From: an uncultured Paraprevotella sp.
Lineage (GTDB): Bacteria > Bacteroidota > Bacteroidia > Bacteroidales > Bacteroidaceae
Reading direction: 5' to 3'
Length of the DNA stretch: 64,000 nt
Assembly: GCA_944321345.1 (NCBI GenBank)
Contig: CALUKY010000012.1
Location: 1 to 64,000 of the forward strand
A program made the translations under genes and the position numbers. Below are positions 1,424 through 43,961 of this stretch, one piece after another (the first letter of the stretch is position 1; each line of letters starts with the position of its first letter). Below the pieces are notes generated by a model that saw only the letters and a program-made list of their open reading frames with translations, did no database searches and was not told the origin of the DNA.

Positions 1424-1454
1424 TTTGTTATATGGCATTTTCCTCTTAAATTTG
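1424..1454 (+). promoter_or_regulatory. Bacteroides-type promoter of the leucine operon
   Basis: TTTG at 1424-1427, exactly 19 bases, then TAAATTTG at 1447-1454. This is a perfect match to the Bacteroides consensus (-33 TTTG, -7 TAnnTTTG). It places the transcript start near 1460, about 20 bases before the leader peptide and about 185 bases before leuA, so the leader and the attenuator are both transcribed. Confidence 0.8.
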
Positions 1455-1482
1455 CGTTATCAATAATATAAAAAATAAAAAT

Positions 1483-1563
1483 ATGGTTACTGCGAATACA
1501 GCTATTTTATCAACTCTATGTTTCCGACTGCAAAAAGTAGTGGGAAGTGTGCTTTGTGTGTGA
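1483..1563 (+). CDS. leucine-operon leader peptide (attenuation)
   Basis: A 26-codon open frame, ATG at 1483 and TGA at 1561-1563, lies between the promoter and the terminator hairpin upstream of leuA. The encoded peptide is rich in branched-chain residues: ten of 26 are Ile, Leu or Val, in the clusters AILSTL and VVGSVLCV. That composition, the position, and the way its codons overlap one strand of an alternative hairpin are what a control peptide for transcription attenuation should have. It is too short to find by length alone. The reading frame is seen directly; its translation and its role as a leucine or branched-chain sensor are inferred. Confidence 0.75.
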   Translation: MVTANTAILSTLCFRLQKVVGSVLCV

Positions 1564-1596
1564 TTGTATCGCAGAGATATAAAAGCCTTTCCCACT
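1539..1596 (+). promoter_or_regulatory. antiterminator helix of the leu attenuator
   Basis: AGTGGGAAG at 1539-1547, inside the Val-Val-Gly-Ser codons of the leader peptide, is complementary to 1588-1596, the left arm of the downstream terminator (nine pairs, one G-U). The two hairpins cannot form together. A ribosome stalled at the earlier Ile/Leu codons (1504-1518) would leave 1539-1547 free to pair and let transcription continue. A ribosome that reaches the stop codon would cover this strand and let the terminator form. Confidence 0.7.
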
Positions 1597-1621
1597 TTAT
1601 TGTGTGAAAGGCTTCTTTTTT
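1583..1621 (+). terminator. leader terminator of the leu operon
   Basis: AAGCCTTTC (1583-1591) pairs with GAAAGGCTT (1606-1614), followed by C and a run of six T. It sits 25 bases before the leuA start, so it can only act as an attenuator of the operon and not as the end of an upstream gene, whose stop is 300 bases away. Confidence 0.85.
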
Positions 1622-1645
1622 GCCAACAAATAAAAATTAGAATAT

Positions 1646-3148
1646 ATGAGCGACAGACTTTTTATTTTTGATACAACACTTCGTGATGGAGAGCAGGTTC
1701 CAGGCTGCCAGTTGAATACAGTTGAGAAGATACAGGTAGCAAAGCAACTGGAGGCTTTGGGAGTGGATGTGATTGAAGCCGGTTTTCCTATTTCCAGTCC
1801 GGGTGATTTTAATTCCGTAATAGAAATATCTAAGGCTGTGACCTGGCCAACCATTTGTGCTTTGACACGTGCCGTGCAGAAAGATATTGATGTGGCCGCA
1901 GAAGCTTTACAGTTTGCCAAGCACAAACGTATCCATACAGGTATCGGAACATCGGATTCACACATTAAATATAAATTCAACTCTAATCGTGAAGAGATTA
2001 TTGAGCGTGCCGTAGCAGCCGTGAAATATGCAAAACGTTATGTAGAAGATGTGGAGTTTTATGCAGAAGATGCCGGACGTACAGATAATGAGTATTTGGC
2101 TCGCGTGGTCGACGCTGTAGTAAAGGCTGGAGCTACAGTGGTCAATATCCCGGATACAACCGGTTATTGTCTGCCACAGGAGTTTGGAGCCAAGATCAAA
2201 TACTTGATGGAGCATGTGGATGGCTTGTCTGCCGGAAAGGCTATTCTCTCTACTCATTGCCATAATGATCTGGGTATGGCTACAGCCAATACGATTGCCG
2301 GTATTATGAACGGTGCCCGTCAGGCCGAGGTTACGATTAACGGTATCGGAGAGCGCGCCGGTAATACTTCGCTTGAAGAGGTAGCTATGATTCTGAAATG
2401 TCACAAGGGAATAGACGTAGACACAAATATCAATACCCAAAAGATATATCCTACCAGTCGTCTTGTATCCAGCTTGATGAATATGCCGGTACAGCCCAAT
2501 AAGGCGATTGTGGGACGAAATGCTTTCGCTCACTCCAGTGGTATCCATCAGGATGGTGTTTTGAAGAACGTACAGACCTATGAGATTATCGACCCTAAAG
2601 ATGTCGGTATTGATGATAATGCCATTGTACTGACTGCCCGAAGCGGACGTGCAGCTTTGAAGCATCGTTTGAGCGTATTGGGCGTTGAACTGGAAGGTGA
2701 ACGTTTGGATGCCACTTATCAGGAATTCCTGAAACTGGCAGACAAGAAGAAAGAAGTAAATGACGATGATATCTTGATGCTGGCTGGTGCCGACCGTGCT
2801 GCAGCTCATGCCATTAAACTGGATTATCTGCAGGTAACCACCGGTATGGGAGTGAAATCCGTTGCTTGCATCGGTTTGGATATTGCCGGTGAGAAGTTTG
2901 AGGCCTCTGCCAGCGGTAATGGACCGGTAGATGCCGCCATTAAGGCTTTGAAGAACATTATCAAGCGTCATACCGTATTGAAAGAATTCACCATTCAGGC
3001 AATCAGTAAGGGATCAGACGATGTCGGTAAGGTACACATGCAAGTGGAATATGACGGACATGTATACTATGGCTTCGGTGCCAATACGGATATTGTATCC
3101 GCTTCTGTAGAAGCATATATTGACTGTATCAACAAGTTTAAGAAGTAA
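1646..3148 (+). CDS. leuA: 2-isopropylmalate synthase
   Basis: This 500-residue protein catalyses the first committed step of leucine synthesis, joining acetyl-CoA to 2-oxoisovalerate. The TIM-barrel catalytic domain opens with DTTLRDGEQ at residues 9-17. The metal ligands of the HxH motif are H204 and H206 (THCHNDLG). The GxGERAGN loop follows, and the C-terminal third (about 380-500) is the LeuA allosteric dimer domain that normally binds leucine for feedback inhibition. Length is typical of the bacterial enzyme. It is the first gene of a five-gene operon and lies just behind the attenuator, so it should be controlled both by attenuation and by feedback. A second paralogue lies at 5200. Confidence 0.96.
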
Positions 3149-3158
3149 TTTTGAAACA

Positions 3159-4556
3159 ATGGCTAATACTTTATTTGATAAGATATGGGACGCACATGTG
3201 GTACAGAATGTGCCCGATGGTCCTACCCAACTTTATATTGATCGTTTATACTGCCATGAGGTAACCAGTCCTCAGGCTTTTGAGGGACTGCGTACCCGTG
3301 GTTTGAAATGCTTCCGTCCGGAACGTATTTACTGTATGCCCGATCATAATACACCGACACATGATCAGGACAAGCCTATCGAAGATCCGGTTGGAAAGAC
3401 ACAGGTAGATACTTTGGCACGGAATGCCAAGGAGTTTGGACTGACTCATTTTGGTATGATGCATCCGAAGAATGGTATTATTCATGTGGTGGGACCGGAG
3501 AACGGTCTTTCTTTGCCGGGCATGACCATAGTGTGCGGTGATTCGCATACTTCTACCCACGGAGCGATGGGAGCTGTAGCTTTCGGAATCGGAACATCGG
3601 AAGTGGAAATGGTCATGGCTTCGCAGTGCATTTTGCAACAGAAACCGAAATCCATGCGTATCACCGTTAAGGGTTCTTTGGGTAAAGGTGTTACTGCAAA
3701 GGATGTGGCTTTGTATTTGATGAGCAAGATGACCACTTCCGGAGCTACCGGTTATTTTGTAGAATATGCCGGTTCGGCTATCGAGCAGTTGACTATGGAA
3801 GGTCGTCTCACCTTGTGTAATCTTTCTATCGAGATGGGTGCCCGCGGTGGCTTTATTGCTCCAGATGAAATAACCTTTGCTTATTTGAAAGATAAGGAAT
3901 ATGCTCCTAAGGGTGATGCATGGGATAAGGCTGTGGCTTATTGGAAAACACTGCGTAGTGGAGAAGATGCCGTATTTGACAAGGAAATCGAGTTTGATGC
4001 AGCCGATATCGAACCTATGGTAACTTATGGAACCAATCCGGGTATGGGAATGGGTATTACGAAGAATATTCCTTCTTTGGACCAGATTGAAGCGGCCGGT
4101 CAGGCTTCTTTCAAGAAAGCACTTGACTATATGGGATTTGCACCGGGAGATCAGATGATCGGTAAACCGGTGGATTATGTTTTCTGTGGTTCTTGTACAA
4201 ATGGCCGTATTGAAGATTTCCGTGCTTTTGCTTCGATTGTGAAAGGACGCAAGAAAGCCGATCATGTGATCTGTTGGTTAGTACCGGGTTCATGGGCAGT
4301 GGCACGTCAGATTGAAGAGGAAGGTCTGGACCAGATTTTCAAGGGGGCCGGATTTGAGTTGCGTCAGCCGGGATGTTCAGCCTGTCTGGCTATGAACGAT
4401 GACAAGATTCCAGCCGGTAAGTTGTCCGTGTCTACTTCAAACCGTAACTTCGAAGGACGTCAGGGCCCCGGAGCACGTACCGTATTGGCCAGTCCGTTGG
4501 TTGCTGCTGCGGCGGCTGTAACGGGAGTAATAACAGATCCAAGAACATTAATGTAA
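3159..4556 (+). CDS. leuC: 3-isopropylmalate dehydratase large subunit
   Basis: A 465-residue aconitase-family subunit. With LeuD it isomerises 2- to 3-isopropylmalate. The [4Fe-4S] ligands are visible as C346 (in FCGSCTNGR) and C406/C409 (in GCSACLAM), matching the standard LeuC spacing. I take the start at 3159 ([11 protein letters not shown]), ten bases after the leuA stop. The open frame extends upstream to 3120 inside leuA, but the protein then gains 13 residues not found in LeuC. It is second in the leu operon, and leuD follows after ten bases. Confidence 0.96.
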
Positions 4557-4566
4557 AGATGATTCC

Positions 4567-5163
4567 ATGAAACAGAAATTTGACATCATAACAAGCACTT
4601 GTGTGCCCTTGCCTTTGGAAAACGTGGATACCGACCAGATTATTCCGGCACGCTTTCTGAAAGCTACAACCAAGGAAGAGAAATTTTTCGGTGAGAACCT
4701 GTTCCGCGACTGGCGATATAATCCGGATGGGTCCTTGAATCCGGACTTTGTATTGAACAATCCCAAGTATAAGGGTGAGATATTGGTTGCCGGAAAGAAT
4801 TTCGGAAGCGGTTCCAGCCGTGAGCATGCGGCATGGGCTATTGCCGGATATGGGTTCCGTGTGGTGATCAGCAGTTTCTTTGCCGATATTCATAAGAATA
4901 ATGAGTTGAACAATTTCGTTTTGCCGGTTGTTGTTTCAGAAGAGTTTCTGGCAGAGTTGTTTGCTTCAATCGACCAGAATCCTGCCACAGAAGTGGAAGT
5001 CAATGTTCCGGAGCAGACCGTAACCAATAAGGCTACCGGAAGACAGGAACATTTCGAACTGAACGGATATAAGAAGTACTGTCTGATAAACGCGCTGGAC
5101 GATATAGACTTCTTGTTGGAAAACAAAGACAAGATCGAAGCCTGGGAGCAGAAATGCATTTAA
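4567..5163 (+). CDS. leuD: 3-isopropylmalate dehydratase small subunit
   Basis: This 198-residue protein is the small swivel-domain subunit of isopropylmalate isomerase. The conserved substrate-binding block GKNFGSGSSREHAAWAI is intact, as is the N-terminal PLPLENVDTDQIIPARF-type motif. Length is normal for a free-standing LeuD. It follows leuC by ten bases and precedes the second synthase gene by 36 bases, so all are likely on one transcript. Confidence 0.95.
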   Translation: MKQKFDIITSTCVPLPLENVDTDQIIPARFLKATTKEEKFFGENLFRDWRYNPDGSLNPDFVLNNPKYKGEILVAGKNFGSGSSREHAAWAIAGYGFRVVISSFFADIHKNNELNNFVLPVVVSEEFLAELFASIDQNPATEVEVNVPEQTVTNKATGRQEHFELNGYKKYCLINALDDIDFLLENKDKIEAWEQKCI

Positions 5164-5199
5164 GCTTCAAGTAAAATACAAAATTAAATCCACAGGTAT

Positions 5200-6762
5200 A
5201 TGGAACAGAATAAAACCGTTCGGGTAGAAATCATGGACACCACCTTACGGGATGGCGAACAGACTAACGGAGTGAGTTTCCTGCCCCATGAGAAACTGAT
5301 CATAGCCAAGGCTTTGTTGCAGGATCTGAATGTGGACCGGATTGAGGTTGCTTCTGCAAGAGTTTCGGATGGAGAAATTGAAGCGGTAAGCAACATTTGC
5401 CGGTGGGCGGCTCAGGTGAGTATGCTGGATCGGGTAGAAGTTCTGGGATTTGTGGACGGACATGCTTCACTCGATTGGATTGCCCGTTGCGGTTGCCGGA
5501 AAATCAACTTGCTTTGTAAAGGCTCGCTCAATCATTGTCAGAATCAGCTGAAAAAGACTCCGGAAGAGCATATCGCTGATATCCGGAAATCATTGGCCTA
5601 TGCCGAACAATTAGGTATCAAGGTAAATGTTTATCTGGAGGATTGGAGTAATGGAATCAAGAACTCGCCGGAATATGTCTTTCAGATTGTAGATGCCTTG
5701 CAGCATGAGCGTATTGAACGCTTCATGTTGCCGGATACTTTGGGAGTACTCAATCCGCTTCATCTGGTCAGCTATATGCGCAAAATGGTGAAACGTTATC
5801 CGCATCTGCGATTTGATTTTCATGCCCACAATGATTATAATTTAGCCATATCCAATGTGCTGGCTGCCGTTTTGGCCGGTTGTCGTGGAATTCATACTTC
5901 GGTAAACGGACTGGGAGAGCGTGCCGGAAATGCGCCATTGGCCAGTGTACAAGCTATTCTGAAAGATCAGTTTCAGGCTGAAACCGGAATCTGTGAGGAC
6001 CGTTTGAATGAAGTAAGCCGTTTGGTGGAGAGTTATTCAGGAATCGCCATACCACCCAATCAGCCGATTACCGGCGAAAGTGTGTTTACTCAGGTGGCCG
6101 GTGTGCATGCCGATGGCGATAATAAGGCGAATCTCTATTGCAATGCCCTGTTGCCGGAACGTTTCGGCCGTAAGCGTGAATATGCTTTGGGTAAGAATAG
6201 CGGAAAGGCCAATATTCTGAAGAATCTGGAAGAATTAGGTCTGGAACTGACTCCAGAGCAGACCAAAAAGGTAACGGAACGCATCATCGAACTGGGAGAT
6301 AAGAAAGAACTCGTCACTCAGAATGATTTGCCTTTTATTGTGGCCGATGTGTTGAAACACAGCGCTCCGGAGGAACATGTACGTTTGTTGAGCTATATGG
6401 TGACTACGGCCTATGGCTTGAAGCCTATGGCTTGTGTCCGTCTGGAAGTCAATGGGCAGGCTTATGAAGCTCAGGCTTCGGGTGACGGACAGTTTGATGC
6501 CTTTATGCGGGCCACCATGTCCATTTATAAAGAGCGACTGCACCGCGAGTTTCCTTGGTTGGCCAATTACAATGTAACGATTCCCCCGGGAGGACGTACA
6601 GATGCTTTTGTACAGACAGTCATTACCTGGAACTGGAATCAGAAGACCTTGCGGACTCGTGGACTTGATGCAGATCAGACAGAGGCTGCCATTAAGGCAA
6701 CGGTCAAAATGCTGAATCTGATCGAAAAGGACTATGCTTGTGAAGATTTTCATAAATCATGA
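5200..6762 (+). CDS. isopropylmalate/citramalate synthase-family enzyme (second paralogue)
   Basis: This 520-residue protein has the same fold order as Leu[10 protein letters not shown] is at residues 13-21, the HxH metal motif is H208/H210 (FHAHND), NGLGERAGN follows, and a C-terminal LeuA dimer domain contains the repeated GLKPMACVRLEVNGQ-type strand. It is clearly diverged from the leuA product in the same operon and lies between leuD and leuB. Synthases of this subgroup are usually named (R)-citramalate synthase (pyruvate plus acetyl-CoA, threonine-independent isoleucine route) or simply isopropylmalate/homocitrate synthase-like. LeuCD and LeuB can also process citramalate, so its place in this operon is compatible with that role. 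Substrate choice cannot be read from sequence alone. Confidence 0.75.
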   Translation: MEQNKTVRVEIMDTTLRDGEQTNGVSFLPHEKLIIAKALLQDLNVDRIEVASARVSDGEIEAVSNICRWAAQVSMLDRVEVLGFVDGHASLDWIARCGCRKINLLCKGSLNHCQNQLKKTPEEHIADIRKSLAYAEQLGIKVNVYLEDWSNGIKNSPEYVFQIVDALQHERIERFMLPDTLGVLNPLHLVSYMRKMVKRYPHLRFDFHAHNDYNLAISNVLAAVLAGCRGIHTSVNGLGERAGNAPLASVQAILKDQFQAETGICEDRLNEVSRLVESYSGIAIPPNQPITGESVFTQVAGVHADGDNKANLYCNALLPERFGRKREYALGKNSGKANILKNLEELGLELTPEQTKKVTERIIELGDKKELVTQNDLPFIVADVLKHSAPEEHVRLLSYMVTTAYGLKPMACVRLEVNGQAYEAQASGDGQFDAFMRATMSIYKERLHREFPWLANYNVTIPPGGRTDAFVQTVITWNWNQKTLRTRGLDADQTEAAIKATVKMLNLIEKDYACEDFHKS

Positions 6763-6839
6763 GAATGACTCTTGGGGATTCAGATCAAGCGGTGTTTATA
6801 AATTAAGTAAAAGAAGAAAATAAATAAAACGAATAGATT

Positions 6840-7901
6840 ATGGATTTGAAAATAGCCGTATTGCCGGGTGATGGAATCGGACCGGAGATTTCGGAACAGG
6901 GGGTAGCTGTCATGACAGCTGTCTGTGAGAAGTTTGGACACAATGTAACTTATGAGTATGCTCTTTGTGGAGCTGCTGCCATTGATGCTGTGGGTGATCC
7001 GTTCCCGGAAGATACGTATCAGAAATGTATGGCTGCAGATGCAGTGCTTTTCTCTTCAGTTGGTGATCCTAAGTTTGATAATGATCCTACAGCGAAGGTC
7101 CGTCCTGAGCAAGGGTTGTTGGCCATGCGTAAGAAACTCGGACTTTTTGCCAATATCCGTCCGGTTGAGACCTTTGAATGCCTGATTCATCAGTCGCCGC
7201 TGAAAGAAGAACTGGTGCGTGGAGCTGACTTTATCTGTATCCGTGAGTTGACCGGCGGTATGTATTTTGGAGAAAAGTATCAGGACGACGAGAAGGCTTA
7301 TGATACGAATGCCTATACCCGTCCGGAAATCGAGCGTATTCTTAAGGTTGCTTTTGAATATGCCCGTCGCCGTCGCAAGCACCTCACGGTTGTGGATAAA
7401 GCCAATGTTTTGGCGTCAAGCCGTCTGTGGCGTCAGATTGCCAAAGAAATGGCTCCTCAGTATCCTGATGTAGAAACAGATTATATGTTTGTTGATAATG
7501 CGGCTATGCGCATGATTCAGGATCCTCGTTTCTTTGATGTGATGGTTACGGAGAATACCTTTGGTGATATTCTTACCGACGAAGGCTCTTGTATTACCGG
7601 ATCAATGGGATTGTTGCCGTCAGCTTCTACCGGTGAGCATACTCCGGTTTTCGAGCCGATTCACGGTTCATGGCCTCAGGCTAAGGGCTTGAACATTGCC
7701 AATCCGTTGGCACAGATTCTTTCTGTGGCCATGTTGTTTGAGTATTTTGATCTGAAAGAAGAGGGAGCTATGATACGAAAGGCTGTCAATGCTTCGCTTG
7801 ACGCTCACGTTCGTACTCCGGAAATTCAGGTTGAAGGAGGTGCTAAATACGGTACGAAGGAAGTTGGTCAATGGATTGTGGATTATATCAAAAAGGCTTA
7901 A
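6840..7901 (+). CDS. leuB: 3-isopropylmalate dehydrogenase
   Basis: This 353-residue isocitrate/isopropylmalate dehydrogenase-family protein oxidises 3-isopropylmalate with NAD+. Visible blocks are the N-terminal [11 protein letters not shown], the RENTGG-like segment written here as [17 protein letters not shown], the metal-binding [10 protein letters not shown] and the NAD-binding [14 protein letters not shown], in place of the RENTGG of isocitrate dehydrogenases, favours LeuB. Last gene of the leu operon, 77 bases after its neighbour and followed by a strong terminator. Confidence 0.95.
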
Positions 7902-22611: not shown

Positions 22612-23160
22612 GTATGCTCGGCATGAGCTTCTGCTAATGGGTGTGACTCCCGAATGAGCTCTGATAGTGGGAGTATACAGCCAGTAGAAAGGGTGTTCAT
22701 CGAGAGGTGGAATCTAAAAGAAGCTGGCGGCAGGCATCTGGTCTGACGTACAGAAACTTTATAAGAGGCATACAACCGTGGGCAGGGTTGCTACACAAAC
22801 CAAAGCCCGATACCTATTGCAGGATTCACAAGAAAAGTCAATCAAAGTTCCTGCAAACTATCAGGTATTTGACAAGGCGAAGTAATGGCAAAGGCTATGC
22901 ATGGCTGAAGGTTCACCTTCGCACTATATCCGAAGCTGGCTGACATACTGTCGCCATGCAGATATGGGGCTTTTTATCAAATCAGCAAACAAATATATTG
23001 ACCAGCACAATAACCACCGAACGTCTAATGCAGGCAGGGTATCCGTCAATATCAAGACTATATGAGAAATTGTATCGCAATTAAGAGAACCATAGTATGT
23101 CGAACGGCACGTACGGTGGTGTGAGAAGTCGTAAAACGAAAGAAGGAAGATTGACTGCAT
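22612..23160 (+). mobile_element. degenerate group II intron (ribozyme remnant)
   Basis: This gap holds sequence with the hallmarks of a bacterial group II intron. The 5' part, from about 22612 to 22810, contains the GAATGAGCTCTGATAGTGGG and GAAGCTGGCGGCAGGC-type blocks usual just before an intron-encoded reverse transcriptase. The 3' part contains a domain V-like hairpin at 23087-23120: ACCATAGTATGTC pairs with GGCACGTACGGTGGT across a GAAC loop with one mismatch. The GTGTGAGAAGTCG that follows suits the V-VI junction. Only about 270 bases remain where the reverse transcriptase should be. One frame there still ends with ERLMQAGYPSISRLYEKLY, which could be the tail of the lost protein. Exact ends are uncertain, and it is unlikely to move. 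Confidence 0.65.
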
Positions 23161-43701: not shown

Positions 43702-43736
43702 TATAATATGCCTTGAGTCCACGAAGTCATATTATA
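43702..43736 (-). promoter_or_regulatory. hairpin between riboswitch and nrdD (possible expression platform)
   Basis: TATAATATG (43702-43710) pairs with CATATTATA (43728-43736), directly downstream of the cobalamin aptamer on the - strand. There is no T run, so it is more likely to act on translation or to be an unrelated hairpin. The leader then continues about 105 bases to the nrdD start. Confidence 0.4.
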
Positions 43737-43741
43737 CTATG

Positions 43742-43921
43742 TCTTCAGGCAGGTCTTCTGACTTATCCAACCTTGCTTCCTTCCCGGTTCCGCATCGAAC
43801 CAGTGGTCTTTTGGGGGTGTGAGCAAAGTCTTGTGAAAGGATTCACAGCAGCGGGCCTGTTCGGGATTTGCACCCGATTCCCTTTTCATTTGCCAGACAG
43901 GATTGCCCGGTCAAACACCTG
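43742..43921 (-). ncRNA. cobalamin (AdoCbl-type) riboswitch upstream of nrdDG
   Basis: Read on the - strand, the segment has the conserved core in order: AAAAGGGAATCGGGTGCAAA, then CCCGAACAGGCCCGCTGCTG with TGTGA, CCACTGG, CGGGAAGGAAGCAAG, and the B12 box AAGTCAGAAGACCTGCC. These are the landmarks of the adenosylcobalamin aptamer. The aptamer begins close to the predicted transcript start and ends about 145 bases before nrdD. Binding of B12 would be expected to reduce expression of the B12-independent NrdDG enzyme. Confidence 0.93.
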
Positions 43922-43929
43922 AACGACGA

Positions 43930-43961
43930 CAAAGATATATCTTTTTAAAGAGCTTTCCAAA
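43930..43961 (-). promoter_or_regulatory. promoter of the riboswitch-nrdDG transcript
   Basis: On the - strand TTTG (complement of 43958-43961), 20 bases, then TATCTTTG (complement of 43930-43937) fit the Bacteroides consensus with one extra base in the spacer. The start of transcription would fall right at the 5' end of the aptamer. Confidence 0.6.

Follow-up and report, generated by a model that had tools for sequence, protein, structure and literature searches.

A very probable ribosome-mediated transcription attenuator upstream of the leuACD-cimA-leuB operon of a Paraprevotella species and its relatives among the Bacteroidales

In enterobacteria the leuL attenuator combines RNA strands 1 to 4 and a terminator ahead of leuA with a leader peptide whose Leu codons include rare CUA; the use of this codon in a leu leader is an enterobacterial habit too. 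The element described here has all of these parts, and is unlike leuL in its Bacteroidetes promoter, in the mixed Ile/Leu control codons of most relatives and in the cimA-like gene of the operon. In the enterobacterial ilv attenuators the leader reads several branched-chain control amino acids; the ilvD leaders reported below likewise contain Ile, Leu and Val, but operon order and phylum differ, and here the leu and ilv leaders are of one design and differ in their Val codons. Attenuation of this kind is little documented in Bacteroidota. In the same phylum, Flavobacterium psychrophilum is reported to give strong indications that leader peptides attenuate its amino-acid operons by the same proposed mechanism (PMC9723704), although the accessible part of that report names no leu leader and includes no test of codons or operon content. 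The Bacteroid-trp motif (RF01692) is also a Bacteroidetes cis element, described in the accessible text as a candidate RNA, the name of which suggests tryptophan genes (PMC2864571); it gave no match in the window or in 12 relatives. According to the portion available, 5' UTRs of B. thetaiotaomicron hold small ORFs reminiscent of leader peptides (PMC7366714), and a comparative survey of attenuation from 2010 (PMID 20198868, cited in PMC4833913) may cover Bacteroidetes. The available part of PMC8040213 contains nothing on leuA, and no published description of the leuA leader reported here was found in a literature search that left subscription journals mostly outside its reach. The attenuation mechanism itself is already known; the new content is the correspondence of leader Ile codons with cimA and of leader Val codons with ilvD.

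The window (the whole analysed stretch of 64,000 nucleotides from an uncultured Paraprevotella sp., contig CALUKY010000012.1) carries a leu operon in the order leuA-leuC-leuD-cimA-like-leuB at positions 1646-7901 (Table 1). Four of the genes were identified by curated NCBIfam cut-offs, while the fourth in order, which was missing from the initial annotation, is a putative cimA, so named with reserve because its NF042433 score lies under the cut-off. Citramalate synthase feeds isoleucine synthesis, via LeuCD and LeuB. The best named relatives of LeuA among the matches listed were from Prevotellaceae/Bacteroidaceae MAGs (93-96%; the protein's own record is possibly absent). Towards the start of the window the operon is preceded by a 5S rRNA gene (124-234) and an M48-peptidase-like gene (471-1286). 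A 5S rRNA gene shortly 5' of leuA was also seen at L039, L042 and L072 (B. fragilis, P. vulgatus and a MAG), with the 23S end upstream of leuA as well in the first two. Elsewhere in the window there were matches to a cobalamin riboswitch (43731-43937, minus strand) and to a group II intron D1-D4 (22696-22855, plus strand).

Table 1. Positions of the leader elements and operon genes in the window
Feature	Position	Strand	Remarks
Bacteroidetes-type promoter	1424..1454	+	TTTG 1424-1427, 19 nt spacer, TAAATTTG 1447-1454
Leader ORF, 26 codons, ATG to TGA	1483..1563	+	Candidate control codons Ile8, Leu9, Leu12, Leu16
Strand 1	1517..1531	+	Pairs with strand 2 (1537-1551); contains part of Leu12, all of Leu16
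Strand 2	1537..1551	+	1539-1547 pairs with 1588-1596 as antiterminator
Strand 3	1583..1596	+	Common to antiterminator (1588-1596) and terminator (1583-1595)
Strand 4	1602..1614	+	Terminator right arm
Terminator T run	1616..1621	+	Read from sequence
leuA, 2-isopropylmalate synthase	1646..3148	+	NF002086 and TIGR00973 above cut-off
leuC	3159..4556	+	TIGR00170 above cut-off (scanned protein started one codon upstream)
leuD	4567..5163	+	TIGR00171 above cut-off
Citramalate-synthase-like gene (putative cimA)	5200..6762	+	Best match NF042433 CimA, 649.5 bits, cut-off 950
leuB	6840..7901	+	TIGR00169 above cut-off

The initial annotation had described a perfect promoter, a 26-codon ATG-to-TGA frame with ten Ile/Leu/Val codons and two hairpins sharing bases 1588-1596, one a terminator with a T run and the other an antiterminator with its left strand in the VVGS codons, and all of these were found on direct reading. 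Across the 64 kb the exact promoter pattern is present 4 times, where shuffled sequence would be expected to give 0.45; it was not listed by a generic promoter scan because that scan seeks the E. coli consensus and not the Bacteroidetes type. The leader peptide, MVTANTAILSTLCFRLQKVVGSVLCV, has five Val, four Leu and one Ile. The antiterminator pairs AGTGGGAAG (1539-1547) with TTTCCCACT (1588-1596), including one G-U pair, and the terminator (-15.9 kcal/mol) spans 1583-1614, followed by a single C and the T run; its mismatch is the reason why a generic terminator scan of the window did not list it. The two structures are mutually exclusive and lie ahead of the first gene. The fold of RNA 1461-1622 reaches -43.7 kcal/mol (better than 200/200 shuffles; z -3.98) and contains a further hairpin, absent from the initial annotation, in which strands 1 and 2 pair (1:2) and which overlaps the ORF; RNA ending at 1602, and so lacking strand 4, folds unexceptionally compared to shuffles (z -1.49). 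Strands 1 to 4 are textbook ribosome-mediated attenuator anatomy. On this and the comparative evidence below, the element very probably (probability roughly 0.92) attenuates transcription of the leuACD-cimA-leuB operon in the classical, ribosome-mediated way.

Conservation was assessed upstream of 222 leuA genes (80, 67 and a later 80 loci, plus the window, minus six duplicates, which were sought only in the first set), some of these upstreams being too short for a leader. Under a single rule set, a terminator (-11 kcal/mol or better, at most 150 nt from leuA) was present in 151/222, any candidate ORF in 147/222 and a promoter-anchored leader ORF in 132/222. No terminator was in place by rule in the remaining 71, among which some show, as read by eye, a promoter adjoining leuA or the end of an ilvC-like gene. 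At L160 and L161 (family f90, cimA not seen downstream), which have no terminator by rule, an ORF 5' of leuA was observed to end in a long Leu run (ALLLLLLSNLLLLR in L160, read by eye). The leader ORF was chosen in two ways, as the candidate richest in Ile/Leu, which is a biased choice, or as the one starting from the first ATG downstream of the promoter box, and the two agreed in 128/132 cases. The second choice was used for summary statistics (in one step the first served as a fallback where a promoter-anchored ORF was absent), while the first was used to count promoters, since the second is itself anchored on them. By that count TAnnTTTG lies within 75 nt 5' of the leader ATG in 117/128 leaders tested (shuffles, 0.064 per leader), with TTTG at the right distance in 97 of the 117. 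For codon, stall-model and 1:2 statistics 15 loci were excluded, three of them with a promoter-anchored ORF (L146, which lacks an antiterminator, and L055 and L061, where the ORF was the wrong one), so that 129 of the 132 leaders remained.

Relatives preserve both alternative pairings, with co-variation in each. Terminator (3:4) pairs were standard in 98.2% of alignment cells compared to at most 71.0% when slid, and 6/12 pairs had changed on both sides; for the antiterminator (2:3) consensus the values were 91.1%, at most 70.7% and 5/9. Rows L044, L049, L060, L052 and L146 were dropped by hand, and in the MAFFT alignment some terminator columns are misplaced in rows L031, L056 and L061. The covariation score was reached by 0/500 shuffles for both 2:3 and 3:4, a result that, as the tool warns, relatedness alone can produce. 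Across 95 loci the real 2:3 duplex had a mean of -18.0 kcal/mol; when partners were permuted 100 times the value was -15.15 (best -16.04, sd 0.27), and shuffling of strand 2 gave -12.04. The preference of individual sequences for their own partner is modest, the own partner beating the mean foreign one in 80/95 loci and falling within the best 5% in only 14/95. The window antiterminator is shifted relative to the consensus, GGAAGTGAG. RNAalifold, run on alignment A1, found the terminator, 2:3 only in part and no consensus 1:2, for which reason 1:2 was assessed sequence by sequence; it exceeded a shuffled-ORF control in 122/128 leaders (mean 0.77 vs 0.52; window 0.74 vs 0.58).

The small frame is conserved along with the pairings, as the check named in the initial annotation had asked of relatives. 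In a 56-sequence alignment 214/215 gap runs within the ORF were multiples of three, compared to 17/110 in the non-coding part, although such counts are not independent where gaps are shared by descent. In 46 matched loci CTA made up 36% of leader Leu codons but 1% of those in leuA, and ATT 78% of leader Ile codons but 34% in leuA. In the same loci the rare Arg codon CGA accounted for 39% of leader Arg codons vs 5% in leuA, often directly before a Leu codon (in the window at 1525-1527); 1:2 pairing and slowing of the ribosome are candidate roles for it. It is extremely improbable that the ORF is a small protein with its own function, followed by an ordinary terminator: its conserved place and its median length of 27 aa (n=94) would fit such a protein, but its C-terminal residues track the antiterminator sequence, its Ile/Leu-rich middle has exchangeable synonymous codons, and strand 2 pairs with strand 3. 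Control of the terminator by binding of a metabolite, protein or tRNA, with the ORF incidental, is very unlikely too. Conservation of terminator and antiterminator as RNA speaks for such control; frame-preserving gaps, control-codon bias and a leader content that tracks operon content argue against it, as does the lack of any riboswitch or T-box match in Rfam. No Rfam family matched the leader element in the window or in 12 relatives, and among its leader families (Leu_leader and others) the best in the window was Phe_leader, which was not significant (17.3 bits, E 1.9, gathering score 55).

The four strands, their conservation and co-variation, and the codon bias all agree with the classic enterobacterial layout proposed initially. 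In such an attenuator a ribosome would translate the leader ORF directly upon its transcription. When too little Leu-tRNA, and in many relatives Ile-tRNA too, is charged, the ribosome would stall at Ile/Leu codons between 8 and 16 and cover strand 1, so that strand 2 could pair with strand 3, no terminator would form and transcription would read through into leuA. With plentiful amino acids the ribosome would reach the stop codon and cover strand 2, leaving strands 3 and 4 to form the terminator; if there were no translation, termination should likewise be favoured, by the 1:2 hairpin. Through the leader gene the ribosome can very probably detect that leucine (and in many relatives isoleucine) is scarce and turn the leu genes on. 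From the anatomy, conservation, co-variation, codon bias and match of leader to operon content, which sequence and comparison show, we infer that leader translation, ribosome stalling and regulation take place in the cell.

Which amino acid is sensed was approached by counting residues from the stop codon and modelling, for a ribosome stalled at each codon of the 129 leaders, the upstream capture of strand 3, on the assumption that free RNA starts 13 nt beyond the A-site codon's first base. Mean modelled capture was 0.63-0.70 for stalls at positions -21 to -11, 0.51-0.61 before -22, where Ile/Leu are few, and 0.15 at the stop. From -22 through -11 the share of Ile/Leu at a position is 37-67% and that of Val 0-2%; Val makes up 12% at -1 and 13-23% at -8, -7, -4 and -3. 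For the window's own leader capture was 0.84-0.94 across codons 2-16, dropped to 0.51 at codon 17 and was at most 0.30 from codon 18, and this course by codon is what places Ile8 (0.90), Leu9, Leu12 and Leu16 in the predicted sensing zone and Val19, Val20, Val23 and Val26 (0.26, 0.26, 0.00 and 0.15) outside it. In the folding model a stall at a control codon frees strand 2 and a ribosome at the stop covers it, in line with the earlier expectations that early Ile/Leu stalls would favour read-through and that late Val stalls would cover the antiterminator strand. The proposal of two clusters of control codons is refined in one point: Val is found mainly in the antiterminator strand, and the late Val codons are best read, on sequence and model, as a by-product of that strand rather than as a second control cluster. 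It is highly improbable that valine is sensed through codons 19, 20, 23 and 26, since these four Val codons, the very feature that suggests it, lie in or after strand 2, where modelled capture is low. Val2 does fall inside the modelled permissive zone, at the leader start. In silico, then, leucine and not valine is the amino acid sensed, together with isoleucine in many relatives.

Leaders upstream of ilvD provided a comparison. The covariance model R1, searched in 61 genomes, gave matches below 1e-8 in 27, each at leuA. Inspection of 18 further matches placed ten before ilvD, in ten genomes and at positions that agree with ilvD matches, and the other eight were without a convincing attenuator. 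One weak match (L266, E 0.006) precedes, together with a hairpin and T run, a gene that is presumably a glutamate synthase, and is perhaps another attenuator. A full attenuator set was present by rule at 12/32 ilvD loci examined, a figure that is not a census, as selection went by the best ilvD score, with two loci added manually. The same-design attenuators before ilvD in other Bacteroidales (L255-L261, L263-L265, L275-L304) have Val-rich leaders, e.g. MIALHTSINLAILHIIRVVVVSSGM, which also contain Ile and Leu, while in the window's genus 0/11 ilvD loci, including that of the window genome (G000:C47:4580; L230, L231), had a qualifying one. Val made up 17.1% of 216 control codons in 14 promoter-anchored ilvD leaders compared to 1.7% of 2168 in the 129 leuA leaders (Fisher, 7e-21, with codons not independent), which is a further argument against valine being sensed before leuA. 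In ten genomes with both leaders Val was higher in the ilvD leader in nine and equal in one.

The Ile content of leuA leaders was compared between operons with and without cimA, the former class being defined by a cimA-like gene on the same strand at most 5 kb downstream of leuA. Among 147 loci, 99 had such a gene (73 usable leaders) and 31 had none despite sufficient contig (10 usable); the remaining 17, on contigs too short to see cimA (class U; 8 usable), were left out of the test, from which the spurious leaders L146, L150, L154, L167 and L186 were removed and in which an eye-read peptide replaced that of L173. Leaders had a median of 5 Ile with cimA and 1 without (Mann-Whitney, 1.7e-4); at most one Ile was found in 3/73 vs 6/10 (Fisher, 4.1e-5), and none in 0/73 vs 3/10. 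By family (24 vs 5) the P value was 0.001, at the family level with no tree correction. The three zero-Ile leaders precede a leuACDB operon in a genome where no cimA was found (G085), a leuA followed by a stretch in which leuC, leuD and leuB are absent (G213), and a leuACD operon with cimA 6.7 kb further on, past opposite-strand genes (G031). Four leaders of family f5 are exceptions, with 1 to 5 Ile and no cimA in the operon; cimA lies elsewhere in these genomes.

The window leader is the other exception, with a single Ile although cimA is in the operon, and this is the weak point of a short, translated-looking ORF that is otherwise rich in codons for operon products. It is possible, at somewhat less than even odds, that in this species leucine is sensed only or mainly and that isoleucine control has faded despite cimA. 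Its one Ile to four Leu codons would agree with this, as would the single Ile in each of two leaders of the same genus (L083 and L084), but Ile8 is inside the modelled permissive zone, and most other leaders of the cimA class have several Ile.

We consider it fairly likely that Bacteroidales leader codons are an evolving readout of operon products: mostly Leu in leu operons that serve leucine alone, Leu and Ile with cimA in the operon, and Ile, Leu and Val before ilvD. The link between leader codons and operon could then predict the amino acids served, for example which LeuA-like enzymes make citramalate, and the model R1 could seed an Rfam family. Classical attenuation requires a ribosome close behind the polymerase, and not all bacteria couple the two, Bacillus subtilis being one that does not. 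Leader-codon control of this kind, if true, would require that in Bacteroidota translation stays close behind transcription, and a conserved, co-varying attenuator is indirect evidence of transcription-translation coupling in this phylum, for which the leuA attenuator of these common gut bacteria would be a ready reporter.
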